Source of the DNA: Nostoc sp. NMS4
GTDB taxonomy: Bacteria > Cyanobacteriota > Cyanobacteriia > Cyanobacteriales > Nostocaceae
Assembly: GCF_017115095.1 (NCBI RefSeq)
Contig: NZ_JABXKI010000158.1
Span: 1 to 37,971 of the forward strand
Length of the DNA: 37,971 bases
Reading direction: 5' to 3'
The notes beneath the pieces were generated by a model. That model was not told the origin of the DNA. It saw only the letters and a program-made list of their open reading frames with translations, and did no database searches. Below are positions 4,452 to 27,582 of this stretch, piece after piece; the stretch's first letter is position 1, and each line of letters starts with the position of its first letter. The position numbers and the translations under genes were made by a program.

Positions 4452-5831
4452 TCAATTTGAGTATTCTTTGAGACGCGGTAACAATCCGAAGAAACTCAGA
4501 AGCACAACTGTAGTTGCTGCGATCGCCATTTTAATCTCAAAACCATCTAGATTGCTGAAACCTTGGTGAATTGAGCGATCAAAAACTGCTTGGTTGATAT
4601 CAAATGTCTTTCCATTAGCTGTTTTGAACTCTTCAAGCAGCCAGTTGGACTGTCCAGACTTATTTCCGACGCATAGAGCGATCGCCTCTTGATGCTTGCC
4701 ACTGCGCTCTAACTGGCGAATTTGTTGGTCAATGGCAAGGTATTTACCCAAACTTACGAGACTGGCAAGGGTGGCTTCTTTTTCACCTGGGAAGGTGATA
4801 TTATTCAGTTCATCAGCGATGTAACCTTTAAAACCATCTATCTTTTTACCCTGAGAATTATAGGCAGATGCTATGGTTTCAGCAGTTTGGCCTTGAGGAA
4901 TTTGGGCAATTTGAGCTATATTGCTGAAAAAAGCTCGTTCGTAGTTCGTAGCAAAAGCTGGGTCAAGTAAATAGCGGCTTTCAGCAGCATTAGCGATGTA
5001 GGCATTAGCACGAGCTTGTCGCAAGGCGTGCATAGAACTAAACGCATCTTCTTTAGCCGTCCTAAGATTTTCCGCAGAGGCTAGCAACGTTGCTGTGGTA
5101 TAAGTTAATAAAGCCAAGGCGATCGCTGTGGCAACCAACAGCATAGGATTGAGGGTGCGGCGCATCCTTTGACTCAGAAATATCTGAATCCCTACTAACA
5201 CAATTATCAGTGCTGCACCAGAAATAAAAATTAACGTTAAAGAATTAGTAGCAGCAACCTTTTGTTCGGTATAAGTTTCTTCTAAAACTTGTATATTTAC
5301 TTTATCTAACTCGTCGGCTGCTGGCAGTAAGGTTTTATCCATAAGTTCCGCAGCTGCACGGTAAGCAACCAGCATCGCGTTAGTATCATCGCGTGCGTGA
5401 AAATCCCGTGCTTGCTGAATTTGGGCTATATAGTTACCTAAGCCGAGTTGCATCGTCTGAATGGGTTTTCGCTCTTTATCTGCGTAGGTGATATTCTCAG
5501 CAGCAGCAACTAATCTTTCAGCAGCTTTTTGGTATCGCTCTTCGTAACCTTTGACTGCATCTTGGTTTTGTCCTGCTGGTACTAAAAGTTCATTAGCGAC
5601 ATTGGCATCCATACCGGCAAATGCATCCTTGAGGCGTTGAGCAGTGACGATGCTGGGTGTGGAATCTTCACCAACGGTTTTGATCGCGTGTCTTTGCCCT
5701 TGAACTGCGCTAATAATCGCAATCAGTAATAGTAAACTGGTTGCTCCAGTTAAGTATAATCCTACCTTGAGTCGTTCTGGAGTCGTGAATTTATAATTTG
5801 TCTTACTTAAAAGAGCGATGATTTTACTCAT
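4452..5831 (-). CDS. membrane protein with four predicted TM segments and two helical loops; GlnX-like topology
   Basis: TM1 GLYLTGATSLLLLIAIISAV, TM2 LTLIFISGAALIIVLVGIQIFL, TM3 MLLVATAIALALLTYTTATLL, TM4 MAIAATTVVLLSFFGLL. Start MSKIIALLSK at 5831 preferred. Confidence 0.75.
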   Translation of the reverse strand: MSKIIALLSKTNYKFTTPERLKVGLYLTGATSLLLLIAIISAVQGQRHAIKTVGEDSTPSIVTAQRLKDAFAGMDANVANELLVPAGQNQDAVKGYEERYQKAAERLVAAAENITYADKERKPIQTMQLGLGNYIAQIQQARDFHARDDTNAMLVAYRAAAELMDKTLLPAADELDKVNIQVLEETYTEQKVAATNSLTLIFISGAALIIVLVGIQIFLSQRMRRTLNPMLLVATAIALALLTYTTATLLASAENLRTAKEDAFSSMHALRQARANAYIANAAESRYLLDPAFATNYERAFFSNIAQIAQIPQGQTAETIASAYNSQGKKIDGFKGYIADELNNITFPGEKEATLASLVSLGKYLAIDQQIRQLERSGKHQEAIALCVGNKSGQSNWLLEEFKTANGKTFDINQAVFDRSIHQGFSNLDGFEIKMAIAATTVVLLSFFGLLPRLKEYSN

Positions 5832-5848
5832 ATATTTTATTTGCAGGT

Positions 5849-6562
5849 TTATCCTAATTTCCGAACAGCTTTCACCGCGATCCGAGTCCAATGTCCAAGG
5901 GTAAATTCGTCTCCATCCTGAAGTTTTATGTCTACCATCGGCTTCAATTCCACAGCTTTTAATTGTGTACCATTAGCAGAACCAATATCACGAAGAGTCA
6001 ATGTATTGTCTGTCTCTAGCGTCAGCAAAGCATGGCGGTGTGAGACAGCATCATCAAAATCTAAAGCAATTTCTGGGTGAATTGCTCTAACTTCGCTATT
6101 GCGACCAATTAAGTTAATTGCCTTATCGAGGTGAAATGTAATCGGTGGTTGTATAGGTGGTTCTGGACTTTCGGGATGGCGTAAAGATGGGTCAATATAG
6201 ACAACTACATCCCAACCCATAACTAACAATTGAGAATCTATTAATCCAGACCAAGAACTATTAGTATTTGTCTGTCGCATTGTTCCCATTTCTTCTTCTT
6301 GGGTGCGTTTGGCAATGGGTACTTCACCATGCGCCCCAGTAACGAAGTTGTAACCACAAATTTCACAAAAATTGCCAGTGTTTGATTCATGGGCGGTGCT
6401 ACAATCTGGGCAAAATTCTGTAGCTTTGGTTGGCGTTACTGTTGAGTCAATTGTTTTTTGGACGATTGGAAGTTCAGGTACACCGAGAATCTTAGTACCG
6501 CACTCTGAACAAAAATCTAATTCAGTTGATTCATGTCCTTTAGGACATTTATAGGTTGACAT
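5849..6562 (-). CDS. zinc-ribbon + FHA domain protein
   Basis: Two CxxC ribbons (FCSECG, FCPDC...FCEICG) then FHA signatures LIGRNSEVRAIHPEIALDFDDAVSHRHALL...RDIGSANGT. Confidence 0.9.
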   Translation of the reverse strand: MSTYKCPKGHESTELDFCSECGTKILGVPELPIVQKTIDSTVTPTKATEFCPDCSTAHESNTGNFCEICGYNFVTGAHGEVPIAKRTQEEEMGTMRQTNTNSSWSGLIDSQLLVMGWDVVVYIDPSLRHPESPEPPIQPPITFHLDKAINLIGRNSEVRAIHPEIALDFDDAVSHRHALLTLETDNTLTLRDIGSANGTQLKAVELKPMVDIKLQDGDEFTLGHWTRIAVKAVRKLG

Positions 6563-6618
6563 AGTTACTGAAGTAATTTTTTAAATCGGTATAAGTCGTT
6601 TGTATTTACCAATAACAA

Positions 6619-7902
6619 CTAATTGGGAGATTTAGGAATTCGAGTAGTTTTTGTAGAACGTGTTTCTAATGCCATTGCATCTTCTTTGGCTACTTCTCGC
6701 TTTAACCGGACTGTCCCTGTTGGTGCATCCTCTATCTCAACTACGGTTTTCAGTAGTTTGGCTGTGGCTTCATTCCCTGATTCATGGGCTAGTTTTACTG
6801 CCTTGCCTAATTTGGCAGTAGCAAGCTCAATATCATTTCTAGCACGAGCTTCCAATCCTTCTTGAATTGACTGAGCTAGTTCTGCTTGTCCCGTATAGTG
6901 GGCAACTCGCCGATCGATTTTGGTAGATTTGGCTTCGTCATCAGTCCAGGTTGCCAAAATGCGTGCTTCTGCAACTTTAGTTTCTGTGCCGTTGAGGGTG
7001 TATACTAAACTGGCTCGACCTGCTAACATTTCATCGCCGATATTACCTGGATTGACTTCAATACAGAAGTGGTAATCACGAGACTCGTTACTTCCCCAAG
7101 CTCCAGTGGGGTAATCAACCATCTGAGGCTTGACAGGTTTATGGCGGTGGGTAAGGTCAACAATATCGGGACTAACTTGTTTACAAAACAAGACTTTGGC
7201 TCCTTGTGGTGTCCATAAACGTAAAGCGACATCGCTAACATTTTTACTCATGGCTTTTTCCAAAATGGCACGAAAGTCACTTTCAATCATTGCGGCGTTA
7301 GGAATAATATCGGTTGTCCCTAAAAGTTTGCCGGCAATTTCTTGAAGTTGAGCAACTCGCCAATCAGTTCCGACACCACGACAGTCGCACTGAAATACAC
7401 CTTCACATTCAAGTAAAACTTTCTTCAAGGATTTCTCATCAGAGTCATCATTTTGCCCATCGGTGAGTAGTAGTGCTTGACGAACTGCACTAGGCATCTT
7501 TTTGAATTGGGTTAAGGCTTGAGTTAACCAAGTGGACATGAGAGTACCACCATTAGCTAAAGTACTCTTAATAGCTGCGATCGCTTCTTGCTTTTTTTCT
7601 GTCGTGGCTGGAGAAACAGGAAAAACTACATTAGCTTTACCAGCACCGGTGACGATGAAGAAATGGGCATCCTCTGGGAGCAATTTCACAATTTTGGTCA
7701 TTGCATCTTTGGCTGCATGTATCTTGTCACCTCCCATTGAGCCTGATGTGTCGCAGATGATGCCAAAAAGTCTGCCATTGTGTCCAGTTGCGATCGCACT
7801 ATCGCCTTTTTCGACGGTAATGGTCATAATGGCATCAACTTCTCTGGCTCCTTGGGGTAGATATTGGTTTTGAAAAACTTCGGCTTTAAATTGATGAGAC
7901 AT
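6619..7902 (-). CDS. von Willebrand factor type A domain protein
   Basis: MIDAS motif GIICDTSGSMGGDK; TLMSTWL; LLLTDGQNDD. Confidence 0.9.
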   Translation of the reverse strand: MSHQFKAEVFQNQYLPQGAREVDAIMTITVEKGDSAIATGHNGRLFGIICDTSGSMGGDKIHAAKDAMTKIVKLLPEDAHFFIVTGAGKANVVFPVSPATTEKKQEAIAAIKSTLANGGTLMSTWLTQALTQFKKMPSAVRQALLLTDGQNDDSDEKSLKKVLLECEGVFQCDCRGVGTDWRVAQLQEIAGKLLGTTDIIPNAAMIESDFRAILEKAMSKNVSDVALRLWTPQGAKVLFCKQVSPDIVDLTHRHKPVKPQMVDYPTGAWGSNESRDYHFCIEVNPGNIGDEMLAGRASLVYTLNGTETKVAEARILATWTDDEAKSTKIDRRVAHYTGQAELAQSIQEGLEARARNDIELATAKLGKAVKLAHESGNEATAKLLKTVVEIEDAPTGTVRLKREVAKEDAMALETRSTKTTRIPKSPN

Positions 7903-8017
7903 AGTTTTTGTTTGTTTGAATAGGTTTTTTTAACGTAGACGCTTCGGCTTCCCGCAGGGTACCGCAGAGACGCAGAGGACACAGAGAGAAGGAAGAGAAT
8001 GAGTATGAGAGTTTAAT

Positions 8018-8965
8018 TCATAAACAGAGGACAGCAACAGTAATATTGTCATGTCCACCACAATTACGGGCAAATTCTACAAGGGTGCGAGATATGCCGA
8101 TCGCATCTCCATCGGGCGATCGCTGCACTAGGTTAGCTAAATGTGCTGCATCTAAGGTATAGTTCCACAATCCATCACTGCACAAAATCAAATATCCAGA
8201 ACCAGGAATAGTAAATTTCACAATTGAGGGAACAGCATCCTCAACGGCATCTGCTCCCAGCCAGCGCGTAATTGCATGAGATTTGGGAGATAGTCTAGCT
8301 TCTGCTTCGCTGATTTTTCCGGCTGCGACTACTTCAGTTAACCAGGAATCATCCTGAGTCAATTGTTGGTAATTGCGAGCAGAAATCCAGTAAGCGCGAC
8401 TATCACCTAACCAGCCAATAGTAGCGATACCTTCTTGAACAATTGCAGCCACAATAGTTGTAGATGGTGGTTCCAAATCTCCACTATTTCTATAAGAAAT
8501 ATTACATACATTAGCTAAAGCAGTAGCAAAAGCTGATTTAATTGCCGAAGCGGAATTTTCCCCTGTTTCCCACGCATTCGCTAGAGCCAGACAAGTACTT
8601 TCAGCAGCAGTTTTAGCAGCTAAATCAGGTTTTTCGGAACTAGAAACTCCATCACAAACTACGAGAATATTTGGCTGACTGCCATTGAGTTGTTGTAAAG
8701 CGAGGAAATCTTCATTGCGGCTGTGTTTGAGTCCGCGATCGCTAACTCCGGCTAGCTGTGAATTAATTATTATTTCTAACCAATCATGCACTGGTGGTTC
8801 TTGGCGAAATCCACATTGACAACAGTAGCCTTCAGAATCGATTCCTGCACCACATTTTTCACATTTATCGATCGCAGTTGGCGGTTTACTAGCCGTTAAG
8901 GGTGTACCGCATTCTTCACAAAATTTATCATCAGCTAAAATGGATGCACCACATATACACTGCAT
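8018..8965 (-). CDS. PP2C-family Ser/Thr phosphatase with N-terminal zinc ribbons
   Basis: FCEECG and CEKCG...CCQCG ribbons; PP2C motifs SDRGLKHSRNEDF, VVCDGVSSS, WLGDSRAYW, LILCSDGLWNY, GGHDNITVAV. Confidence 0.92.
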   Translation of the reverse strand: MQCICGASILADDKFCEECGTPLTASKPPTAIDKCEKCGAGIDSEGYCCQCGFRQEPPVHDWLEIIINSQLAGVSDRGLKHSRNEDFLALQQLNGSQPNILVVCDGVSSSEKPDLAAKTAAESTCLALANAWETGENSASAIKSAFATALANVCNISYRNSGDLEPPSTTIVAAIVQEGIATIGWLGDSRAYWISARNYQQLTQDDSWLTEVVAAGKISEAEARLSPKSHAITRWLGADAVEDAVPSIVKFTIPGSGYLILCSDGLWNYTLDAAHLANLVQRSPDGDAIGISRTLVEFARNCGGHDNITVAVLCL

Positions 8966-9139
8966 AATTTGCCCTCATTAGTGGTCTGTCAAATACAGAT
9001 GAATAAAGGAACGAACCGCATTCGCGTTAGCGTCTCCCCTTGGGAGAAGGACGCGAAGGAAGAAGGAAAGAAGAAAAATTTAATTACGAATTACGAATTA
9101 CGAACTTGTGCCGAGCGAAGTCGAGGTATTACGAATTAT

Positions 9140-11317
9140 TTAAATTAGGGTTCTGGGACGTACCCGATTAGCTTCATCAACTAAAGAGATTTTTTCGTCT
9201 TTAGTTGCGAGGTGCGCCATGTCGCGTAAGGCTTTTTCCAATCCCTTTCTCAGATGCACTTCTTGTAAAGGCTGTCCCAAAATTGTTAAATCAGCAGCAG
9301 CTTGGAGTTGGCGCGAGGTGATTAAATTGAGAGCAGTTTCTAATACTTGTTTAGTCAGGCGATAGCGATCGCTACCTTCTAAAGTCAGTGCTTCAATGGC
9401 CACAGAAGCGGCTTTCAGTTCTTGAGTACCTGGAGCCGAGCGATCGCCATTGATTAAAGTCCGGGCAATTTCGACTCGCGCTCGTGTATATAAATTAGAA
9501 GTTTGCGGAATATTTTCCAAAGCTGCTACAGCACCGTTGCGATTCCCAGTGGCACAAAAGCAACGTGCTAACCCAAAAGCTGCTGATACATAACTCGGAT
9601 CGGTGCGGGACACTAAATTATACATCTTAATTGCTAATTGGTAATTTTCGGCAAGTTCTGCGGCTAACCCCAACGCCAGTTTCGGAGCTAATTCTCCTGG
9701 TAAATCAAAATAAACTTGGTCAAATGCTTTCTGCGCCTCTGTGGGTTTATTTTGCGCCATCAGCGATCGCCCACGATACCAAAAGCTCCGCCAATCCCAA
9801 GGATCTTTGGCTACGACTTGGGCTATAGCTTGTTCTGCTTCTTCGTAATCATTGGTATCAATTAAGGCATTTGCCAAGCGCAACAAGGCTTCACTTGATT
9901 TCGGGAATTGTTTGACAACAACATCTAAACCGACGGCTCGCTGGACTGGATCGGCGATCGCGCTGGCATTTAGGACTGCATTAAAGCCCGGATCGGTAGC
10001 ATCCAATATTGGTATCGGTAATTGCTGATATTCTGGCTTAATTGGTTCAAAACTTCCACTGTGGGTAATAGCTAACATATCGCCGCCAAACAGGTTACTG
10101 GTGGCGGGACGGGGAATATTGGTAGAAATGGCGACAACTTCCCGCAGTACACCCAATAACTGATCTGCCATTTCATCGGCTGACTGAAATCGATCATCAG
10201 GATTTTCGGCGGTGGCTTTAATCAGAAAGCGATACAGTGATTCTTGTTGGGCAAATAAAGGTTCTTCTTGGGGGCTGGGAAGTGTGTATAAATGTTCCTT
10301 ACTAAAACCTTTAATCTCGGTGAGCAACACCGCCAAAGTTCTGCCAATGGTAAATAAATCGGAAACGATTGTGGGTCCTTCGCCGGCTTCGGGAGCGCTA
10401 TAGCCGACTGTACCGTAAATATCACCATCGGGATCATCAACGCGACGGACACCACCCAAGTCGATTAATTTCACGTCGTTGTCTTCGATCATGATGTTAT
10501 CTGGCTTGAAGTCGCAGTATACCAACCCCAAGGAATGTAAATAGGCAAAAGCTCCCAAGATACGGTGAATATATGCGATCGCTTCTGCGACGGGTAACGC
10601 CCCACGAGTTTTGCGGATTTCTTTCAGGGTTTTACCGCCCACATACTCCATGATGATAAAACCCTCAGTACCCTGGTTGACGAAATTATAAATTCCCACG
10701 ATATTAGAGTGTTTTACTACTGCTAGGAATTGTCTTTCTGCCACGGCGACGGCTGCGCTAGATGCGTCTTCGCTGTTGAGCAATCCTTTCAGTACTACAT
10801 AGCGAGATAAAGTTTTATCAAAGCCTAAATAAATCCATCCTAAACCACCATAGGCGATCGCTCCTTTAACTTCGTATTGCCCGATAACTACATCACCAGG
10901 CTTCAGAGTCGGAATAAAAGAATACTTCTGCCCACACTTGCTGCAAAATCCGTTTTCTCGTCGCAAAGAATGATTGCAACTACTACAAAAGCGTTTATTC
11001 TCTGGCACCATTGGGTTAAGAAGAATCGCTTTTTCTGGTTCCGTTGAGGGTAGTTCTGGTACAGAAGTTAATCCCGCTCCTAGTTGTCTGCGGCTACTAC
11101 GGGCAGAAGTGCTACTGGTACGCCGCGAACCCTTGGAACGATTGGTTAATGGAGACGAGCCTGTGGCTGTGGTAATTGGTGAACTTCTGAGTGTTTGTGA
11201 CGCATTTTGTTTCTGGCTGACATCAAGAGATTTTAATGCTGCTAACCCACAGACATTACAGTAGTCATCTTCAATAGTGCCAGTACATCCATTCCGCACA
11301 CAGCGAAGACTGTTCAT
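9140..11317 (-). CDS. pknG-like: PknG-like serine/threonine protein kinase (zinc ribbon - kinase - TPR)
   Basis: FCSSCNHSLRRENGFCSKCGQKYSFIPTLKPGDVVIGQYEVKGAIAYGGLGWIYLGFDK...LVYCDFKPDNIM...LIDLG...GTVGYSAPE, TPR region LPGELAPKLALGLAAEL and end VDEANRVRPRTLI agree with remembered mycobacterial PknG along its length. Confidence 0.93.
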   Translation of the reverse strand: MNSLRCVRNGCTGTIEDDYCNVCGLAALKSLDVSQKQNASQTLRSSPITTATGSSPLTNRSKGSRRTSSTSARSSRRQLGAGLTSVPELPSTEPEKAILLNPMVPENKRFCSSCNHSLRRENGFCSKCGQKYSFIPTLKPGDVVIGQYEVKGAIAYGGLGWIYLGFDKTLSRYVVLKGLLNSEDASSAAVAVAERQFLAVVKHSNIVGIYNFVNQGTEGFIIMEYVGGKTLKEIRKTRGALPVAEAIAYIHRILGAFAYLHSLGLVYCDFKPDNIMIEDNDVKLIDLGGVRRVDDPDGDIYGTVGYSAPEAGEGPTIVSDLFTIGRTLAVLLTEIKGFSKEHLYTLPSPQEEPLFAQQESLYRFLIKATAENPDDRFQSADEMADQLLGVLREVVAISTNIPRPATSNLFGGDMLAITHSGSFEPIKPEYQQLPIPILDATDPGFNAVLNASAIADPVQRAVGLDVVVKQFPKSSEALLRLANALIDTNDYEEAEQAIAQVVAKDPWDWRSFWYRGRSLMAQNKPTEAQKAFDQVYFDLPGELAPKLALGLAAELAENYQLAIKMYNLVSRTDPSYVSAAFGLARCFCATGNRNGAVAALENIPQTSNLYTRARVEIARTLINGDRSAPGTQELKAASVAIEALTLEGSDRYRLTKQVLETALNLITSRQLQAAADLTILGQPLQEVHLRKGLEKALRDMAHLATKDEKISLVDEANRVRPRTLI

Positions 11318-11546: not shown

Positions 11547-12755
11547 TTAAAATTGGCTGTTTAAACGTTTTTCATATTGGGAAACTAATTCCGATGCCTT
11601 GTCTAATGGAGTTGGGCGCATATAGAGGAGTTGTGTTGCTTTTTGGGCTAAATCAACCAAGGTAATATCTTCAATCAATCCCCGCGCTAAGGCTTTCGCT
11701 TTGAGGGCATCCAGTCGTCCCCGTAACTCCCGACGAGTTTGTAATAAAGTACTATTAGCTGTGTATGTCTGTTGCTCTACAGTTATGTATTCTTTAGCTT
11801 TGGCTATCCAATTATCTAAACCGAGCATAACTGGACTAACTAAACCCTCCTCTAGCTTGTTTTGTAAGCGGGTGAGCCATTGGCTAAGGGCATCTATCTG
11901 CTCTTGGGGTAATGGAGTGTGCTGTGTTAGATACAAAACTTTTTCTTGGCTTTCCGTAAAAGTAGTAATAGATTGTGAGTGAAGTCTAATTAATTGTGCT
12001 AATAAATTGTGAGCGATCGCTAGTTTCTCTTGTATCTGAGCCTGTTGTTTCTGGGCTTGCTCTAAGAATAATTTAACTTGTGCCAACAAAGGTTTGATTT
12101 GCTGATCTATCTCTTTGCTCACTCCTAAAGGATCTTGCTCAATCCTTTCTCGTAGAGAAGCGATCGCCTCATGAGCTTCTACCAGTTCCCGACAAGAGGC
12201 TGGATTGAGTGATGCGGCTAAGTTCTGCCCTAAGATAATTTGCGATTCTGCATCTTGGAGTATAAATTCTAGATTTGTCCAAGCGGCATCAACCGCTAGA
12301 ACTGCATCTCTGGCCACAGAAAAAGCCTGAGTCATTACTTCTAATAATTGTGCAGGAGCGATCGCGTTTGCTTGTTGGGTAACAGTCAGCAATTCTCTCT
12401 GTGCTAATGGCCTTTGCACAACAGACAGATGAATCGAAGTGCCTGTTAATAGTTGTTTAATTTCATCAATTTTTTCCTCTGTTCCCAAAAATCGTGGTAG
12501 TTGCTGCCGCAATCTACTGGCTCGATCTATTGTTTGCACCAATAGGTCAAAGTACTGAAATAAATCGTTCATTGCCTCCAACGCCGGAGTCACTTTTTGA
12601 GCAGTAATGCCTGTCAAATGAACTTTCGGAAAACCAGGACTCCCACAAAGGCGTTGATATACTGGGAGTTCTTGTAGATCAAACAGGTTTTGGCTAACTA
12701 CTTTAATTTTATTTTTCCAGTCAGCTAAGAGTTGATCAACAATTTTGGTTGTCAT
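11547..12755 (-). CDS. coiled-coil-rich hypothetical protein
   Basis: 402-aa ORF rich in Gln/Leu/Ala heptads; same strand and next to the kinase cluster. Confidence 0.7.
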   Translation of the reverse strand: MTTKIVDQLLADWKNKIKVVSQNLFDLQELPVYQRLCGSPGFPKVHLTGITAQKVTPALEAMNDLFQYFDLLVQTIDRASRLRQQLPRFLGTEEKIDEIKQLLTGTSIHLSVVQRPLAQRELLTVTQQANAIAPAQLLEVMTQAFSVARDAVLAVDAAWTNLEFILQDAESQIILGQNLAASLNPASCRELVEAHEAIASLRERIEQDPLGVSKEIDQQIKPLLAQVKLFLEQAQKQQAQIQEKLAIAHNLLAQLIRLHSQSITTFTESQEKVLYLTQHTPLPQEQIDALSQWLTRLQNKLEEGLVSPVMLGLDNWIAKAKEYITVEQQTYTANSTLLQTRRELRGRLDALKAKALARGLIEDITLVDLAQKATQLLYMRPTPLDKASELVSQYEKRLNSQF

Positions 12756-12943: not shown

Positions 12944-13210
12944 GTGGCGCATCTGCCACCAATTGAGCAAACTTATCAGGGTCAAGATCCTCAAACTCCA
13001 GCATCACCAAAGCTCAAGAGGACGAAAAGATTCGTAATTCTATTGGGGTGGCTGATGGTGAGCCTTACTGGAACGCATACCTGGGGGAGTGGCAGGTTTG
13101 GGTTAACTTTGGAAGTGGCTGTAGGTCTGTGGTGTGCGATTGGTTGGTGGCGGTGTAGGGCAAATCATGTATCCGCAGCTTTCATAAATCTCAATATCTC
13201 AAGTAACTAG
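12944..13210 (+). CDS. possible small membrane protein (GTG start)
   Basis: 88-aa ORF with one hydrophobic stretch RFVILLGWLMVSLTG; overlaps the end of the convergent gene. Confidence 0.25.
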   Translation: MAHLPPIEQTYQGQDPQTPASPKLKRTKRFVILLGWLMVSLTGTHTWGSGRFGLTLEVAVGLWCAIGWWRCRANHVSAAFINLNISSN

Positions 13211-16104
13211 CCCATTTGCCGAGCCATTAACTGGGCAAATAGACCTTCAACAGTAGCTAGTTCGTCAAAAGTTCCCTGTTGGACAACTCTACCTGCTTGG
13301 AGTACATAGATGCGGTGAGCGTTACGGATGGTACTAAGTCGATGTGCGATCGCTATTCTGGTAACTTGTAATTTATTTAAGCTTTCACTCACAATGGCTT
13401 GAGTTTTATTATCAAGGGCACTGGTGGCTTCATCAAAAAATAAAATCCGGGGTTTTAATGCCAAAGCACGAGCAATCAACAATCTTTGGCGTTGTCCTCC
13501 AGAAAGATTACTACCCCCTTCGCTCACCACAGTATGCATTTGCATGGGCATGGTGGTGATATCATCAGCAAATCCAGACATCCGCGCTGCTTCCCAAGCT
13601 TCATCTAAGGTCATCTGTGCGCCACCTGCGATATTCTCAAAAATGGAAGCGGAATTTAGTTGGCCATTTTGTAAAACTACGCCCAATTGTCGGCGCACTG
13701 CATCCACATCTAACCCAGATAAATCTTGACCATCGTAGTAAACACTACCTGCTTGGGGAGTTTCAAATCCCAGTAGTAATCGCAGTAACGTCGATTTACC
13801 ACTACCAGAACCGCCTACCAGAGCAATAAATTCTCCTGGTTCGGCAGAGATACTCACGTCATCTAATGTTAGTGCGCCATCACTGCGATAGCAAAAGGTA
13901 ACATGGTCTACAGTAATTTTCCCTATGAGCTTACCAGGATCGGCTTTGCACATATCCACCTCTGGGATAGTTGCCAAAATTGGCTGTGTGCGCTGCCATT
14001 GGGGGATGACTTGCAAAATTTCTGTAATTGTATTGCTCAGATTTGTGGTGCCTCTGGTAAAGTTACCAAAAGCTGTGTTAAAAGCCAGGAAGGTGCCAAG
14101 AGATAATTCAACTGTTCCTGAAGTTTGCGGAGCTTCCAGCAGTTTAATCGTAAACCAAAAAAGTACTCCAGAAGTCAGTATGGGCATGACTGTATTGAAC
14201 AGGACAACGGCATCTTCTATGCGTTGCGTACTCAGTTCCAGCTTAATTTGGCGAGTGTAGTTTTTACTCCAAGCAGCAAAGGCGCGTTCTTGGGCACCAG
14301 CAATATGTAGTTTAGAAATGCCATTGATTAGCTGTACTGTCTGCCCAAAAATATTACCCTGGACTTCCAGTAGCGGACGCACCTTGGCTAACAGCAGTAT
14401 ACCAGAGAGGGTGGTGAAAGCGATCGCAACTACTGCAACTCCAACGGCGATAAAAGCTAATTTGTAGTTGTAATAAAATAACTGTGCCAAATAAAACAGT
14501 GCAAACGAACTCGTAATTAGATTAATCAGACTTGTTCCACTGAGTTTGCGGCGAATTGTACTCACCGATGTGATGCGGGATAGTAGATCCCCGGTTGTGT
14601 ATTGTCGGAAAAAAGACACTGGTAAGTTGAGCAACCGATCCCATACCCCCGCTTGGGTGGAAGCATCGCCAGTCGATTCCATCCGCAACAGAGCAAAACC
14701 CTGTGCTAACTGAAATAAAGCTGTACCCAAAGCTGCAACCAGCAAACCTAAGCCGATTTGCAGTAATAAACCGCGATCGCTATCGGGAATTGCATTATCT
14801 ATAATAATTGATGTGGCATAAGGTGTAATCATCCCCAGCAACGTTACCGCAATGCCACTAAATACAATTGCCAACAGGCCTTGATTCTGTCCTTGGAGTG
14901 TGAACTTGAATATATCAATAGCTTTGAGTGCTTTATCGGGCAAAGAACGATAAAACATATAAGCAACAGGAGCCAATGTTGCAGCTATCTGTTCATCTAC
15001 TTTGACACGGGTACGTTCAACCGGGTCAAAAATTTCATAACGAGTTGGAGAAATCGGTAGTAGGGCGACTGGGCGGTTATCTTGGGTATAGGCAATTAAA
15101 GCGCCAGAATCCTTTTCCCACCAATTATCTCGCAATAGCACCCGCCGCATCCGAATCCGGGAAGCCCGAACAATTGCTTCTAAAGGTTCCTTGAGCCGCT
15201 TCAGGTTTTCCGAACGAGACGGGGGACGAATTTTGATCCCCATCGCTCTACCTACAGCACCAGCCGCCACCAGCAAAGGTGTACCTTCTAAAAAAAAGTC
15301 GCTATCTTGGGAATTTAGCGTTGATGCTAGTTCGCCTAAAGCCTCCATTGTGACTTGACGATTTAGGCGTTGGCGATCGCGCAACCGGATTATTTCTGTT
15401 TGTGCTTCTTGCTCATCTATAATATTGATGCATTGCAAGAGTTGAGTATGGAAGTGAGATAACCCAGCCAGCAGTGTATCTGGATTTGAGAATTCGCTGG
15501 TAGTGTGAGTTGTCAATTGAACTCCTTCCACAGCTGACAACCACATTTTATCAGTCAGGGGAAAAGTCGCAGTGGTTGGTGTTAAGGTGATTTCCTCAAA
15601 CCCCAGAAAGCGGACATTTCCTTGGTGAAGTTGTACCCAACAGATGACACCCGCTTCTGGCTGGAAAGTCTGAGCATTATTTAAGGAAAATCGTACTTCT
15701 TCCTTAGCCTTCACCTGAATTTTCGGCATAGTAACTTGGGAGAATACACCAGCGAGTTGTAAAAGCCAAGTTTCTATCCAAGTTAAAACTTTTGTATCTG
15801 CATTGGCTACTAACTCCCGCAAACATTCTTGATGTACTTGGAGTAATTCAGTTTCGCCAATGGGAACTGCTAAAATCTGATGTTGTTGATTAGCAGTTCC
15901 AAAAAGTGCTTCACCTTGATTAATACTGCATAGATAACGGCGCGTTCCTTCGATAACACCATCTTTGAGTGTGACAGCAAACAAAGCCATAGAGCCAGAC
16001 TGAACTACCCAAACTCTAGAAGGGTCATTCAGTAGAATTGGTTCATTGCCATTAATTATGTAAACCTGACCGTGTATTAGCATTTGGGAATGGGGAGAAA
16101 TCAA
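13207..16104 (-). CDS. NHLM bacteriocin-system-type ABC transporter, permease/ATP-binding (second ABC type)
   Basis: 965 aa; long N-terminal non-transport region; ABC TMD; Walker A GGSGSGKSTLL, signature LSGGQRQRLLIARAL, Walker B ILFFDEATSALD. Confidence 0.88.
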   Translation of the reverse strand: MISPHSQMLIHGQVYIINGNEPILLNDPSRVWVVQSGSMALFAVTLKDGVIEGTRRYLCSINQGEALFGTANQQHQILAVPIGETELLQVHQECLRELVANADTKVLTWIETWLLQLAGVFSQVTMPKIQVKAKEEVRFSLNNAQTFQPEAGVICWVQLHQGNVRFLGFEEITLTPTTATFPLTDKMWLSAVEGVQLTTHTTSEFSNPDTLLAGLSHFHTQLLQCINIIDEQEAQTEIIRLRDRQRLNRQVTMEALGELASTLNSQDSDFFLEGTPLLVAAGAVGRAMGIKIRPPSRSENLKRLKEPLEAIVRASRIRMRRVLLRDNWWEKDSGALIAYTQDNRPVALLPISPTRYEIFDPVERTRVKVDEQIAATLAPVAYMFYRSLPDKALKAIDIFKFTLQGQNQGLLAIVFSGIAVTLLGMITPYATSIIIDNAIPDSDRGLLLQIGLGLLVAALGTALFQLAQGFALLRMESTGDASTQAGVWDRLLNLPVSFFRQYTTGDLLSRITSVSTIRRKLSGTSLINLITSSFALFYLAQLFYYNYKLAFIAVGVAVVAIAFTTLSGILLLAKVRPLLEVQGNIFGQTVQLINGISKLHIAGAQERAFAAWSKNYTRQIKLELSTQRIEDAVVLFNTVMPILTSGVLFWFTIKLLEAPQTSGTVELSLGTFLAFNTAFGNFTRGTTNLSNTITEILQVIPQWQRTQPILATIPEVDMCKADPGKLIGKITVDHVTFCYRSDGALTLDDVSISAEPGEFIALVGGSGSGKSTLLRLLLGFETPQAGSVYYDGQDLSGLDVDAVRRQLGVVLQNGQLNSASIFENIAGGAQMTLDEAWEAARMSGFADDITTMPMQMHTVVSEGGSNLSGGQRQRLLIARALALKPRILFFDEATSALDNKTQAIVSESLNKLQVTRIAIAHRLSTIRNAHRIYVLQAGRVVQQGTFDELATVEGLFAQLMARQMG

Positions 16105-16126
16105 TTAAAACTACAGGGGGGTATTA

Positions 16127-16272
16127 TGGTGGTTCTCGAATGGATGCAACACACTTTGACCTCTCTCCAAACCTCTCTCCTAAAAGCAGAGAGGCTTTGA
16201 ATCTTACTCCCCTTCCCTACAAGGGAAGGGGCTGGGGGTTAGGTCTGTATTCGACTCAACCGAGAACCGCTA
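16127..16272. mobile_element. candidate MITE, 146 bp
   Basis: Ends TGGTGGTTCTCG and CGAGAACCGCTA (10/12 complementary), direct repeats TATTA at 16122-16126 and 16273-16277, two inner hairpins (CCTCTCTCCTAAAAGCAGAGAGG; CCCCTTCCCTACAAGGGAAGGGG). Confidence 0.6.
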
Positions 16273-16303
16273 TATTATGTGCATCTTCATACAGAATTGG
16301 TAT

Positions 16304-16480
16304 AAGCCTAAACATTGAACCTTTAAGCCTAAACATTAAACCTTTAAGCCTAAACATTGAACCTTTAAGCCTAAACATTGAACCTTTAAGCCTAAACATT
16401 AAACCTTTAAGCCTAAACATTGAACCTTTAAGCCTAAACATTGAACCTTTAAGCCTAAACATTGAACCTTTAAGCCTAAA
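16304..16480. repeat. 21-bp tandem repeat, eight full units plus a partial
   Basis: Unit AAGCCTAAACATTGAACCTTT; G/A variant order across units is G A G G A G G G. Confidence 0.97.
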
Positions 16481-16525
16481 ACTTTAAGTTCTAACTCTCT
16501 TCCTCCTTTCTCATGCTTCCACCGC

Positions 16526-18775
16526 TTACCCTTCAGTGCGAATTAACCGCGAATATACGCCGTCTATTTGCCATAAATCCCTGTGAGTGCCTTGTTGTAC
16601 AACCTTTCCGCGTTCTAGAACAATAATTTGATCGCAATCGCGGATAGTGCTTAACCGGTGAGCGACAATTATGCAGGTGCATCCGCGACGACGGAGATTT
16701 TGGTCAATGATTTGTTCTGTTTCTGCATCGAGGGCGCTGGTGGCTTCATCCATTACAAGTATTGAAGGATTATTCACCAAAGCGCGAGCGATTTCTAAGC
16801 GTTGTCGCTGACCGCCACTTAAATTAGCAGCACCTTCTATGAGTTCAGCATCCAATCCTCCAGACATAGAGAAAATTACATCAGCGATCGCGGCATCTTG
16901 ACATGCCCGTATTAGGTTTTTATCTGGTACAGTAGTATCCCAGAGGGTCAAATTATCTCGAACCGTACCGCCAAACAGCAAAATTTCCTGCTCCACCATT
17001 GCCACAGAGTTAGTAAGCAGTTGTTGGGAAATCTGATTTCTCGGTTTACCATCAAAGCAAACTTCCCCCGCCCAAGATTCATAAAGTCCGCTCACAACTT
17101 TAGCAATAGTAGACTTCCCCGAACCGCTTCCACCGACCAAAGCTACTCGCTGTCCCGGCTTAATTGTCATACTAAAGTTTTCAATTAATGGTGCTTCCAG
17201 ACGGCTATAACCAAAAGTGATATTCCGCAACTCCACATAACCCTGTAATTTGGGAAGAAGATAGGGGGATGAGGGGGATGAGGAAGAATTTACTTCCCCT
17301 GCTCCCCCTGCCTCCCCTGCCTCCCCAATGGGATTATCCAGTACATCATCCAGCCGAATCAAATTCCCTTCCAATTCTTGGAGAGTAGTACCAAAGTTGA
17401 CGAGATTGTTAACAGGTTGCTGGAAACCTAACATTAAACCTTGAAAAGCAATGAGCATTCCAATGCTGAGATGTCCATCCATTACCCGTAAACTACCAAC
17501 TACCAACAAAAACATCGAAGAAAGAGCGGATAAAAGTGTGGGTAATACAGAGAATGTCTGGTTTGTGACTCCTAATTCCTGCTGAGAATTGAGAGCTTTG
17601 GTATAATAACCTGACCACCGGGAAAAGAAATCTGACTCCAACCCGGATGCTTTAAGTGTTTCAATACTTTGAAGTGCAGCAATGGATAACCCAGCCGCCT
17701 TACCATATTCTTGGATTAATCTTTGATTAGCATCTACCCGTTGTCGAGAAATCCACTGCAAAGTTAAGACGTTCACACCAGCAAAGCCGACCACCATCAA
17801 AGTCAGCACCCAGTCATACTGCACCATGACTAAGGCATAAAAAACCACCATCAAAGTATCAATAATTGTAGTTGCCAACTTTCCTGCGAGAACATCAGCA
17901 ACTTGGTCGTTGAGAGTAGTCCGGTTACTGATTTCTCCAGCAAAACGTTGAGCATAAAAACTAACTGGTAGCCGCAGGATATGCCAGAGGAAGCGGCTGG
18001 ACATGCCTACACCCAGTTTGATTTTTAAACGGCGCAGATAGCGCAACCGTAATAATGTTAGCGATCCTTGGAGTATAGCAGCGATCGCCATGCCCACAAG
18101 CAAAGGACGCAGCCATAATTGCCGCCCCTGCACCAAAATGTCATCTACAAACACCTGGCTGAACACAGGTACTACTAACCCAACCACCGTTAAGAAAAAT
18201 CCTGCAACCATAGAGTAAACTAAAGCATCTCCAGCCCCCTGTAGCCGTGACCACAGAGATAAAATCATACTGGGTTTGCGACCACCTTTAGTAAACTCCG
18301 CCCCTGGTTCAATCACCAGCACAACTCCCGTATACCCCTCGTCAAATTCCTGTAAAGAAACATGACGCGGCCCCATACCGGGGTCATTGAGATAAACTCG
18401 CTCATTGCGAAATCCCTCTACCACAACGAAGTGGTTGAAGTTCCAAAAAACAATATAGGGAGGACGCAGTTCTTGCAGTTGCTTGAGTTCTTTTTTAAAC
18501 CCTTTAGCTTCAAGTCCATAACTTCTAGCAGCTTTGAGCATATTAGATGCCTTGCTGCCATCGCGGGAAACTCCGCAATCTCGGCGCAGTTGTGGCAGTG
18601 GTACAATGCGATCGTAGTAACCCAAAATAATTCCCAAAGCCGCAGCACCACATTCCACAGCTTCCATTTGCAAAAGTGTAGGTGTTTTTACCCGAATGCT
18701 TCGGCGTGGCAATAATTTTTGCAAGTACTGCCAAGGATTAAACGGTGTTACTAAAGTAGATTTAATAGATACCAC
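16526..18775 (-). CDS. NHLM bacteriocin-system-type peptidase/ABC transporter with C39 domain
   Basis: C39 motifs QMEAVECGAAALGIILGYY, FNHFVVVEGF, NDPGMG; TMD; Walker A GGSGSGKSTIAK, LSGGQRQRLEIARAL, ILVMDEATSALD. Confidence 0.92.
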   Translation of the reverse strand: MVSIKSTLVTPFNPWQYLQKLLPRRSIRVKTPTLLQMEAVECGAAALGIILGYYDRIVPLPQLRRDCGVSRDGSKASNMLKAARSYGLEAKGFKKELKQLQELRPPYIVFWNFNHFVVVEGFRNERVYLNDPGMGPRHVSLQEFDEGYTGVVLVIEPGAEFTKGGRKPSMILSLWSRLQGAGDALVYSMVAGFFLTVVGLVVPVFSQVFVDDILVQGRQLWLRPLLVGMAIAAILQGSLTLLRLRYLRRLKIKLGVGMSSRFLWHILRLPVSFYAQRFAGEISNRTTLNDQVADVLAGKLATTIIDTLMVVFYALVMVQYDWVLTLMVVGFAGVNVLTLQWISRQRVDANQRLIQEYGKAAGLSIAALQSIETLKASGLESDFFSRWSGYYTKALNSQQELGVTNQTFSVLPTLLSALSSMFLLVVGSLRVMDGHLSIGMLIAFQGLMLGFQQPVNNLVNFGTTLQELEGNLIRLDDVLDNPIGEAGEAGGAGEVNSSSSPSSPYLLPKLQGYVELRNITFGYSRLEAPLIENFSMTIKPGQRVALVGGSGSGKSTIAKVVSGLYESWAGEVCFDGKPRNQISQQLLTNSVAMVEQEILLFGGTVRDNLTLWDTTVPDKNLIRACQDAAIADVIFSMSGGLDAELIEGAANLSGGQRQRLEIARALVNNPSILVMDEATSALDAETEQIIDQNLRRRGCTCIIVAHRLSTIRDCDQIIVLERGKVVQQGTHRDLWQIDGVYSRLIRTEG

Positions 18776-20207
18776 TGACCGACCTCAAGATAGGTAAAAC
18801 GAAAGTGATAGGAGCGCGTTCTTCCACGTTGACTCGCACAACAGTAGTAGTTCCCGAAGAAATTTTCAGGTGTGGACCGATGGAGGAAGACCACTTATAA
18901 CCGCTCGGTGTGTTGGTATCTAAATCGAGGTCAGAGAATACTTGTATCAGTCCTTGTTGTTGAGACACTAAACCTTCTAGCACTTCGGAATTACCCACCT
19001 CATTAGCGGCTGCTTCTTTAGTAATCGGAAAGCGTGAGATGCTAGTAACATTACCCACAATGCCACCAAAGCGTTCCCGCTTCACCGTTTGGGGAGTAAT
19101 TTGTATCTTCATCCCCGGCTGAATTTTCTTACCATCAGCAACAGGAAAATAGGTAACGCCAACCAGTTTGCTTTTAGGATTTTCCGCCTCAATGGTTGCG
19201 AGGCGAGTTCCGGCGCTAACAACTTGTCCTGGTGTCAGCGTGATTTCTAAAACACGTCCGCTATATTGACTAATAATCTGACTATCATTGCCTAATTGCA
19301 CTTCTAATTGGGCAATTTGTCGCTTAACATCTTGAATCTCTTTTCGTCGGGTGGTGACACTTTCGAGGTCTTGTTGAGCCACAGAAGCCTGTTTGCTATC
19401 TAGTTCTTTTAACTGAGCTTGTAAGTCAGAAATGGTACTGAGGTTTTCCCGATAATCTTTTTCTGTTTGCGTCGCTTTTACATCCAGTTCTTTCAACTGA
19501 TTTTGGATATCAACAATTTTTTCCAGGTTTTGCAAATATTCTTGTTCAGCCGTGAGTGCTTCATCACCAGAAATCGCCCCCTCTTTTTTGAATAGCTGTT
19601 TGCGGATTTCCATTCTCTGAAGGAAAACAGGGGTTAGAGCTTGGGCTTGTTTGAGGCGCTGTTCTAAACCTTGGCGTTGCTGTCCAATAGAGGTGTTACC
19701 TTTGGTTTTGAGGAGAGGCGTGATAGCTCGCAGTTCCAGTATACGTTGCTGGAGGTAGTGGCTTTGTTGTTGTTGCGATCGCTTTTCTTGTTCCAGCCTT
19801 TGTCTTTGCAAAGAACCAACTGCTTGGTTTTGTGATTCTAATTCCGTTAGTTTAGCCCGTTGCTGTTGCAGTTGCTTACGGAGTTCAGCTTGGTCAATCG
19901 TCGCCAACACCTGCCCCTTTTTGACGACATCCCCAACTTTGACATTGAGAGCCATCAATTGTCCAGCACTTTTTGATTGCAGTTGTACAACATTGCTGAG
20001 GTAAATCAATACCCCTTGACCCTCAACAGTAATGGGGATGCGTCCGTAAATGCTCCAGATAACAGCTACTCCCACTATCGAACCCAAGGCGACAAGAGGT
20101 AGCCAACTTCTGGGGCTGACTACCTGCATAAGTTGGTCTAGTCTTTCAGGAGAAGAGAGACGCTCTAAGGATTCTTTGCGAAATATACTGCGTTTTTGGT
20201 GGAGCAT
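18762..20207 (-). CDS. HlyD-family secretion protein (NHLM-system membrane fusion protein)
   Basis: One N-terminal TM, lipoyl-like halves (KVGDVVKKGQVLATID; LTPGQVVSAGTRLATIE), long coiled coil; overlaps the next ABC gene by 14 bp. Confidence 0.9.
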   Translation of the reverse strand: MLHQKRSIFRKESLERLSSPERLDQLMQVVSPRSWLPLVALGSIVGVAVIWSIYGRIPITVEGQGVLIYLSNVVQLQSKSAGQLMALNVKVGDVVKKGQVLATIDQAELRKQLQQQRAKLTELESQNQAVGSLQRQRLEQEKRSQQQQSHYLQQRILELRAITPLLKTKGNTSIGQQRQGLEQRLKQAQALTPVFLQRMEIRKQLFKKEGAISGDEALTAEQEYLQNLEKIVDIQNQLKELDVKATQTEKDYRENLSTISDLQAQLKELDSKQASVAQQDLESVTTRRKEIQDVKRQIAQLEVQLGNDSQIISQYSGRVLEITLTPGQVVSAGTRLATIEAENPKSKLVGVTYFPVADGKKIQPGMKIQITPQTVKRERFGGIVGNVTSISRFPITKEAAANEVGNSEVLEGLVSQQQGLIQVFSDLDLDTNTPSGYKWSSSIGPHLKISSGTTTVVRVNVEERAPITFVLPILRSVSGIY

Positions 20208-26680: not shown

Positions 26681-27469
26681 CTAACGAGTAACGACTAAAC
26701 CAGCAATCTGATCGGTAATTCCTGCAATTGTCTGACTGATGGGATGTTCAGGGTGACGTAGGGAGAAAATACCAAGGCTTGCTAGCTGCATCATTTCTTC
26801 GGAAAGGGGCAAAATTCCGGCTACTGGGACGTTGTAGATTTTCTCAACCTGTTGTTGCAAGTCTGCAAAGTTCAAGCTTGGTAACGCCTTGTTAATTACT
26901 AGCAACATTTTTGGCACTCTGAGCTTCCGGGCTACATCCACTGTTACCGCAGTACCTTGAAAGTCTTGATTATCTGGACGTAAGAGAATTATTAGAACAT
27001 TAGAAATACCAATGGAAAGTAAGGTTTCTTCATTCAATCCTGGATGTGTATCTATTAATAAATAGTCTAGTTTCAGGCTGCGAATAAGTTGCTGAAAACC
27101 ATCGTTGAGTCGGATTACATCATATCCTTCACGCAGAATTCTAGCGATTTCACCAGCTTTAATACTAGAAGGTACTAGGTAAAGCCTACCCTTGACTGTA
27201 CCTGCATTTCCTGGTTCTGCAATTAGAGTATCAGTCACGTCATAGGCTGCGTCTTTAATATCACATTGTCCCCATAAATAATCATTGAGTGAGCGTTCTA
27301 TTTTATTCTCGTTGAGTCCGAAAATAACGTGAATTCCTGGTGATTGGATGTCAGTATCAATAATGCCTACACGTTGTCCTTGAAGCGCCATAGTAGCTGC
27401 TATATTGGCAATCAAGTTTGATTTACCAGTACCGCCACGGAATGAATGAACTGCGATAATTTGTGCCAT
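26681..27469 (-). CDS. MinD/ParA-family ATPase
   Basis: Deviant Walker A HSFRGGTGKSN; GIIDTDIQSPG; DYLLIDTHPGL. Confidence 0.9.
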   Translation of the reverse strand: MAQIIAVHSFRGGTGKSNLIANIAATMALQGQRVGIIDTDIQSPGIHVIFGLNENKIERSLNDYLWGQCDIKDAAYDVTDTLIAEPGNAGTVKGRLYLVPSSIKAGEIARILREGYDVIRLNDGFQQLIRSLKLDYLLIDTHPGLNEETLLSIGISNVLIILLRPDNQDFQGTAVTVDVARKLRVPKMLLVINKALPSLNFADLQQQVEKIYNVPVAGILPLSEEMMQLASLGIFSLRHPEHPISQTIAGITDQIAGLVVTR

Positions 27470-27533: not shown

Positions 27534-27582
27534 TAACTCCTAACTCCTAACTCTTAACTCCTAACTCTTAACTTCTAACTCT
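27534..27582. repeat. heptanucleotide STRR, seven units of TAACTCC/T
   Basis: TAACTCC TAACTCC TAACTCT TAACTCC TAACTCT TAACTTC TAACTCT; overlaps the 3' end of the permease-like CDS. Confidence 0.9.

Follow-up and report, generated by a model that had tools for sequence, protein, structure and literature searches.

We analyzed a 37,971-nucleotide stretch of DNA from the cyanobacterium Nostoc sp. NMS4 (contig NZ_JABXKI010000158.1 of assembly GCF_017115095.1; hereafter the window), which carries a PknG-type protein kinase gene within a compact cassette of six genes. An earlier note on this DNA had listed five of them, encoding a GlnX-like membrane protein, an FHA protein, a VWA protein, a PP2C phosphatase, and PknG, and all five were found on the minus strand as described. 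That set was incomplete, since a sixth co-conserved member, here named COIL, had been overlooked. The genes are transcribed in the order COIL, PknG, PP2C, VWA, FHA, GlnX and are separated by gaps of 17 to 229 bp (Table 1). We hold the identities of the genes and the conservation of the cassette to be practically certain.

Table 1. The six-gene cassette of Nostoc sp. NMS4 and the tail of its VWA protein, in window coordinates.
Feature	Position	Strand	Basis
GlnX-family membrane signal transducer, 459 residues; four transmembrane helices, two periplasmic helical bundles	4452..5831	-	NF058618, AlphaFold
FHA protein, 237 residues; two N-terminal zinc ribbons, C-terminal FHA	5849..6562	-	PF00498 (5.9e-12)
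VWA protein, 427 residues; VWA_3 and VWA_3_C	6619..7902	-	Profile match to PDB 4FX5
C-terminal tail of the VWA protein, residues 412-427, LETRSTKTTRIPKSPN; candidate phosphoacceptor and FHA docking site	6622..6669	-	Conservation of T419
PP2C phosphatase, 315 residues; N-terminal zinc ribbons	8018..8965	-	PF13672/PF00481, NF033484 (145 bits)
PknG kinase, 725 residues; N-terminal zinc cluster, rubredoxin-like domain, kinase, TPR domain	9140..11317	-	Pfam, 2PZI
COIL, 402 residues; helical/coiled-coil protein	11547..12755	-	Co-conservation

The kinase is a full-length PknG homologue, as had been claimed. A single chain contains the rubredoxin (PknG_rubred, PF16919; 4.9e-18), kinase (Pkinase, PF00069; 1.5e-33), and TPR (PknG_TPR, PF16918; 8.1e-69) domains, and residues 77 to 723 align to PknG of Mycobacterium tuberculosis (PDB 2PZI; 2.5e-138). 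The catalytic residues K177, E194, D269, N274, and D286 are invariant in the alignment, and the phosphatase keeps the metal-binding aspartate motifs of PP2C, with D76, D105, D264, and D306 invariant. In Desmonostoc (loci L040 and L058), a remnant between pknG and vwa is all that is left of a decayed PP2C; at L040 (6288-6575), it amounts to a fragment near the C-terminal motif.

The membrane protein scored above the threshold of NF058618, a broad GlnX-family model already in NCBIfam (299.3 bits, 5.1e-89; cut-off, 250), but did not reach that of the equivalog NF041460, protein kinase G-activating GlnX (45.9 bits; cut-off, 780). By these scores it is a member of the GlnX family, but not the corynebacterial/mycobacterial equivalog. 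Hydropathy placed hydrophobic segments at residues 21 to 45, about 199 to 223, 229 to 251, and 430 to 454, and an AlphaFold model built with 37 relatives was all-helical, with two long extramembrane bundles (pLDDT, 91.5; pTM, 0.85). This topology fits tandem four-helix-bundle (4HB) domains and matches that of Corynebacterium glutamicum GlnX (PMC9769921), which bears out the four-transmembrane, two-loop assignment of the earlier note. Homologues favor the ATG at 5831 as the start codon over the TTG at 5891 farther upstream. A 160-residue bundle showed a weak resemblance to the 4HB ligand-binding domain of Vc1313 with D-amino acids (probability, 1.00; TMt, 0.74 to 0.78; E, 0.25). Comparison of the whole-chain fold with the PDB gave no significant match, and PDB sequences offered nothing useful; Foldseek matches to TTYH, PepT, and MATE proteins were discarded as generic helical matches (TM-scores of about 0.15 to 0.2).

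COIL adjoins pknG in most cassettes and is co-conserved across relatives, and it belongs to no Pfam or NCBIfam family. Its model is helical (pLDDT, 89) and had no fold match in the PDB, while scattered matches to coiled coils and viral spikes were dismissed as low-complexity noise. The position of the gene and the helical model lead us to guess that COIL may tether GlnX to PknG.

The VWA protein matches PDB 4FX5 from Catenulispora acidiphila over its full length (profile E, 3e-130), and on this sequence evidence we consider it an ortholog. It has the same architecture, a beta-sandwich split by the vWA domain and followed by C-terminal helices, and conservation marks D51, S53, S55, T120, and D148 as the residues of the metal ion-dependent adhesion site. 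The protein ends in a tail of sequence LETRSTKTTRIPK, which contains LETRSTKTTR with an STKT motif. T419, the outstanding conserved threonine of the protein, lies within this short terminal tail and is present in 99% of 67 homologues. Of the 86 cassettes tabulated, 82 had the tail motif; two showed variants of it and one a truncation. The adjacent gene encodes, as had been noted, a zinc-ribbon FHA protein, with two N-terminal ribbons. Across 62 homologues, G153, R154, S174, H177, N197, G198, and T199 of its FHA domain are conserved, so that the residues binding phosphothreonine are kept; conserved serines and threonines sit in the FHA core or in or right beside the zinc ribbons, and the linker between ribbons and FHA domain shows none of them and no ETTS-like motif. 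The VWA and FHA genes lay less than 600 bp apart in all 50 loci measured.

To define the distribution of the cassette, we scanned 85,000 species genomes using the VWA alignment and obtained 70 loci, 47 of them cyanobacterial; the scan relied on two VWA peptide patterns, so all counts are lower bounds. All six genes were present within the fetched stretch at 32 of the 47 cyanobacterial loci, and the remainder were mostly contig ends or split cassettes. Five other cyanobacterial regions contained the same genes, COIL included. Matches to PknG_rubred, full-length GlnX, and VWA were each found in an identical 6 of 386 cyanobacterial genomes, a figure that is not a formal probability because the genomes are related. 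Co-conservation in other cyanobacteria, on which the earlier note had made its reading depend, therefore holds. The distribution is sporadic, and none of five sampled genomes of the same genus contained PknG, GlnX, or VWA.

Dozens of genomes carry the six genes as a set between unrelated flanking genes, which puts the gene set far beyond chance. The genes flanking the cassette in the window are not shared with relatives, and the cassette thus has the character of a unit that moves or has repeatedly been lost. Plasmid carriage was rejected as a general explanation, since PLSDB gave one full-length VWA match, in a chromosome-sized Nonomuraea record of 11.85 Mb. In Pseudanabaena and several other cyanobacteria, VWA, FHA, and GlnX occur without a neighboring pknG. 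Each of the split-cassette genomes tested had one full-length PknG elsewhere, usually beside COIL, and one of them (G388) carried a cassette-type PP2C at a third site; even when unlinked, the parts are therefore retained as a set within one genome. The module, read in the earlier note as an adaptation in cyanobacteria, is not specific to them: the six-gene set was also present in Granulicella and Bryobacterales (Acidobacteriota), in an Armatimonadota metagenome-assembled genome, in Solimicrobium (Betaproteobacteria), and in Sericytochromatia, and a Polyangiaceae contig (Polyangia) carried PP2C-VWA-FHA-COIL with PknG elsewhere in the genome. One Sericytochromatia genome has two copies (L104 and L112, one of which ends at a contig end) in the order VWA-FHA-GlnX-COIL-PknG-PP2C. 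The cassette is portable and recurs across several bacterial phyla.

In Frankia and related genomes, the genes GlnX-GlnH-COIL-PknG-PP2C-VWA-FHA form one run, and this seven-gene operon was found in Frankia, Pseudofrankia, Nonomuraea, and others. It encodes all six cassette proteins and keeps the tail threonine of VWA, and it is to the VWA family of these operons that the protein solved as 4FX5 belongs; it differs from the Nostoc cassette in having GlnH next to GlnX and, mostly, in gene order. The PP2C and VWA genes are thus not cyanobacterial additions, as had been supposed, since many actinomycetes carry both in such runs. In an even sample of 198 actinomycetes, VWA was present in 36 genomes and PknG in 55, and 35 of the 36 VWA-bearing genomes also had PknG. 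GlnH adjoined GlnX in 18 of 20 VWA-bearing regions fetched, which showed two gene orders. Among 14 fetched genomes with PknG but no VWA, 12 had the short GlnX-GlnH-PknG operon known from Mycobacterium and Corynebacterium, the three-gene operon described as the conserved one (PMC6069109). In an unrooted tree of 57 PknG proteins, the kinases of short operons formed one clade (100/100) among those of full operons, and the non-actinobacterial kinases lacking GlnH formed another (100/100). Only a root on the short-operon branch makes the short operon ancestral; its derivation by loss of COIL, PP2C, VWA, and FHA is therefore the simpler reading.

In actinobacteria, unphosphorylated OdhI/GarA inhibits 2-oxoglutarate dehydrogenase (PMC9769921), and the earlier note had drawn the analogy with OdhI/GarA for the present module. 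PknG would then phosphorylate the FHA protein and toggle it between enzyme binding and autoinhibition, as in Corynebacterium and Mycobacterium. The two systems do share a PknG with a TPR domain (and usually a rubredoxin domain), a GlnX-family protein, an FHA protein, and clustering of the kinase and membrane protein genes; PknG is genuinely homologous to the kinase of GarA, and among NCBIfam models the FHA domain, with its phosphothreonine-binding residues, comes closest, though weakly, to OdhI/GarA/FhaB. However, the FHA protein reached 25.6 bits against the OdhI equivalog (cut-off, 200) and, unlike OdhI/GarA, has two zinc ribbons and no conserved phosphoacceptor in its linker, and its gene adjoins that of VWA and not a metabolic gene. 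In addition, the C-terminal family of the E1 component of 2-oxoglutarate dehydrogenase (PF16870) was absent from the genome, which is 98.7% complete, whereas the C. glutamicum control was positive. The Nostoc cassette also differs from the GlnH-GlnX-PknG-OdhI/GarA pathway by its COIL, PP2C, and VWA genes and by the lack of a linked GlnH. Because no E1 was detected in the genome, the FHA linker has no conserved threonine, and the score falls below the OdhI cut-off, control of 2-oxoglutarate dehydrogenase in the manner of OdhI/GarA is unlikely, and so is this enzyme as the downstream target of a VWA-FHA complex. The analogy did not stand, and we regard a metabolic switch of the GarA/OdhI type as improbable.

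The FHA/VWA pair matches ArnA/ArnB of the archaeon Sulfolobus better than it matches GarA/OdhI. ArnA joins a zinc finger at its N terminus to an FHA domain at its C terminus (PMC6509490, PMC12852372), and the ArnB paralog vWA2 is reported to share the tripartite fold of 4FX5 (PMC6509490). Contact through the zinc finger holds ArnA loosely to ArnB, and binding becomes tight after the kinase ArnC has phosphorylated C-terminal threonines of ArnB; the phosphatase of the system is PP2A (PMC12852372). The in vivo phosphosites of ArnB, in its C-terminal helix bundle, are the two threonines of ..ETTRR (PMC6509490, PMC12852372). The similarity of the VWA tail motif to this sequence is short and may serve as a lead, not as proof; the wider link between VWA and ArnB comes from the published comparison of 4FX5 with vWA2. 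Both systems combine adjacent zinc-finger/FHA and tripartite VWA proteins, C-terminal threonines, and kinase and phosphatase partners, and ArnC has a TPR-like region where PknG has a TPR domain. Sulfolobus differs from the cassette in being archaeal, in using PP2A and not PP2C, in its differently built kinase, in the lack of GlnX, and in its output, repression of the archaellum. On balance, VWA and FHA are probably a pair of the ArnB/ArnA kind.

Kinase, PP2C, and VWA genes also lie side by side in the triads described in PMC7159879, and the cassette might accordingly be a conflict or stress module of the TerY-type or GAP1-N2-associated kind, in which an effector would receive peptides or metal-dependent ligands presented by VWA. 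The shared gene list and a sporadic distribution, often in filamentous bacteria, agree with this idea. Against it, the gene content is fixed, relatives do not share the flanks found in the window, neither GTPase genes nor variable effector genes were seen to accompany the cassette, and the kinase and membrane protein belong to the PknG and GlnX families, with FHA and COIL alongside. Neither Ter genes nor GAP1-N2 GTPases were found among the window proteins scanned with Pfam, a scan that did not take in every open reading frame. The resemblance to TerY triads pointed out in the earlier note thus stands for the gene list and has no further basis, and such a module is very improbable.

As to the input, the absence of a periplasmic binding protein from the window was confirmed: the genome encodes six SBP_bac_3 proteins, and none is on this contig. 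GlnH was linked to the cassette only in actinobacteria, and no solute-binding protein (SBP) was linked to it at any of 47 cyanobacterial or 9 other non-actinobacterial loci. An unlinked SBP could nevertheless replace GlnH and feed the same phosphoswitch, with aspartate/glutamate still as the input. Actinobacterial cassettes nearly always pair GlnH with GlnX, and while at least two of the six SBP_bac_3 proteins sit with ABC genes, some stand alone. Yet these six proteins scored 60 to 122 bits against the GlnH profile, for which the source GlnHs or near relatives score 430 to 575 bits, and the lack of linkage extends over all 56 non-actinobacterial loci. We consider an SBP-fed switch unlikely. 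On contig C65 of the same genome (locus L192, 2968-7705), the gene of a stand-alone solute-binding lipoprotein precedes those of a PP2C with zinc ribbons and of an FHA-zinc-ribbon-kinase fusion. This is a second, different kinase/phosphatase locus with an SBP, and it may provide an unlinked input. Direct ligand binding by the periplasmic domains of GlnX has already been proposed as possible (PMC9769921).

We favor a phosphoswitch in which GlnX would sense the periplasmic state through its two 4HB domains, without a cassette-encoded binding protein, and pass the signal to the TPR domain of soluble PknG, probably with COIL as a tether or adaptor. PknG would phosphorylate one or more threonines of the exposed VWA tail (LETRSTKTTR), the FHA domain of the zinc-ribbon protein would hold phospho-VWA tightly, much as ArnA holds phospho-ArnB, and PP2C would strip the phosphate to reset the switch. 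We infer the direction of the signal, the identity of the substrate, its phosphorylation, complex formation, the ligand, and the role of COIL, and we put the chain as a whole at slightly better than even. The cassette would presumably serve nutrient sensing.

The fate of the tail motif bears on this phosphoswitch. The motif is gone in three actinomycete cassettes with paralogous PknG and VWA but no PP2C (L176, L195, and L197), a natural contrast that fits the model. It is kept, there followed by a zinc ribbon, in divergent actinomycete kinase-VWA loci (L193, L194, and L196). At these three loci, a PknG-like kinase with a zinc ribbon is encoded together with a putative trypsin-like protease and a divergent VWA; the tail of this VWA retains DST[KR]T and ends in the zinc ribbon. 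The loci are possibly a sister system. Several points weigh against the phosphoswitch. L095 and L096 keep the VWA tail without a cassette-type PP2C, so that the tail is not strictly dependent on PP2C and the idea of a strict coupling between the two losses is weakened, and conservation of the tail threonine could have some other cause. Between VWA and ArnB itself (8S05), sequence similarity is limited to the vWA domain (5e-11). Direct ligand sensing by GlnX draws on weak fold matches (E, 0.25), and the six unlinked SBPs of the genome could stand in for GlnH. Finally, we found no biochemistry on cassette proteins in the literature outside the short actinobacterial pathway.

Several other features of the window are recorded here for completeness. 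Promoter and terminator scans were uninformative and gave fewer sites than shuffled sequences. Upstream of the cassette, positions 13207 to 20207 hold peptide export genes of the NHLM type, encoding a TIGR03797 permease/ATPase (1056 bits), a C39-peptidase ABC transporter, and an HlyD-like fusion protein; they were ruled out as part of the module, being unlinked to the cassette in relatives. Between two of these genes (16303-16480) lies a 21-bp tandem repeat of 8.5 copies (97% match), which translates on the plus strand as SLNIEPL/SLNIKPL repeats. Farther along on the minus strand, an 865-residue multi-transmembrane protein without a Pfam match (27561-30158) is encoded next to a MinD/ParA-like ATPase (26681-27469), and the genes of a DUF7005 protein and of a tandem cyclic nucleotide monophosphate-binding protein adjoin them on this strand.

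PknG is under study both for its regulation of nitrogen metabolism and for its contribution to the virulence of M. tuberculosis, and the literature we read treats GlnX-GlnH-PknG as an actinobacterial system with one output. In the open-access literature searched, we found neither the six- or seven-gene cassette nor any account of GlnX outside actinobacteria, and no paper connected PknG with a 4FX5-type VWA; nor did the search turn up a function for 4FX5, to which our analysis supplies a likely pathway. The cassette connects a bacterial kinase pathway with the archaeal ArnA/ArnB nutrient switch and yields hypotheses that can be tested, namely that PknG has a further substrate and site, that the pathway has its own phosphatase and an adaptor so far overlooked, and that GlnX can sense without GlnH. 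We tentatively suggest, at rather less than even confidence, that the PknG-GlnX pathway is in origin a phosphoswitch of the ArnA/ArnB kind, now spread over many bacterial phyla, with the VWA tail as the first substrate of PknG and FHA as the reader of that tail; GlnH-GlnX-PknG-GarA/OdhI would then be a trimmed and rewired descendant within a single actinobacterial lineage, with GlnX outside actinobacteria sensing its ligand directly. The familiar three-gene version of mycobacteria looks like a trimmed relative of this wider cassette, whose likely output is an FHA-VWA pair of a type known from archaea.

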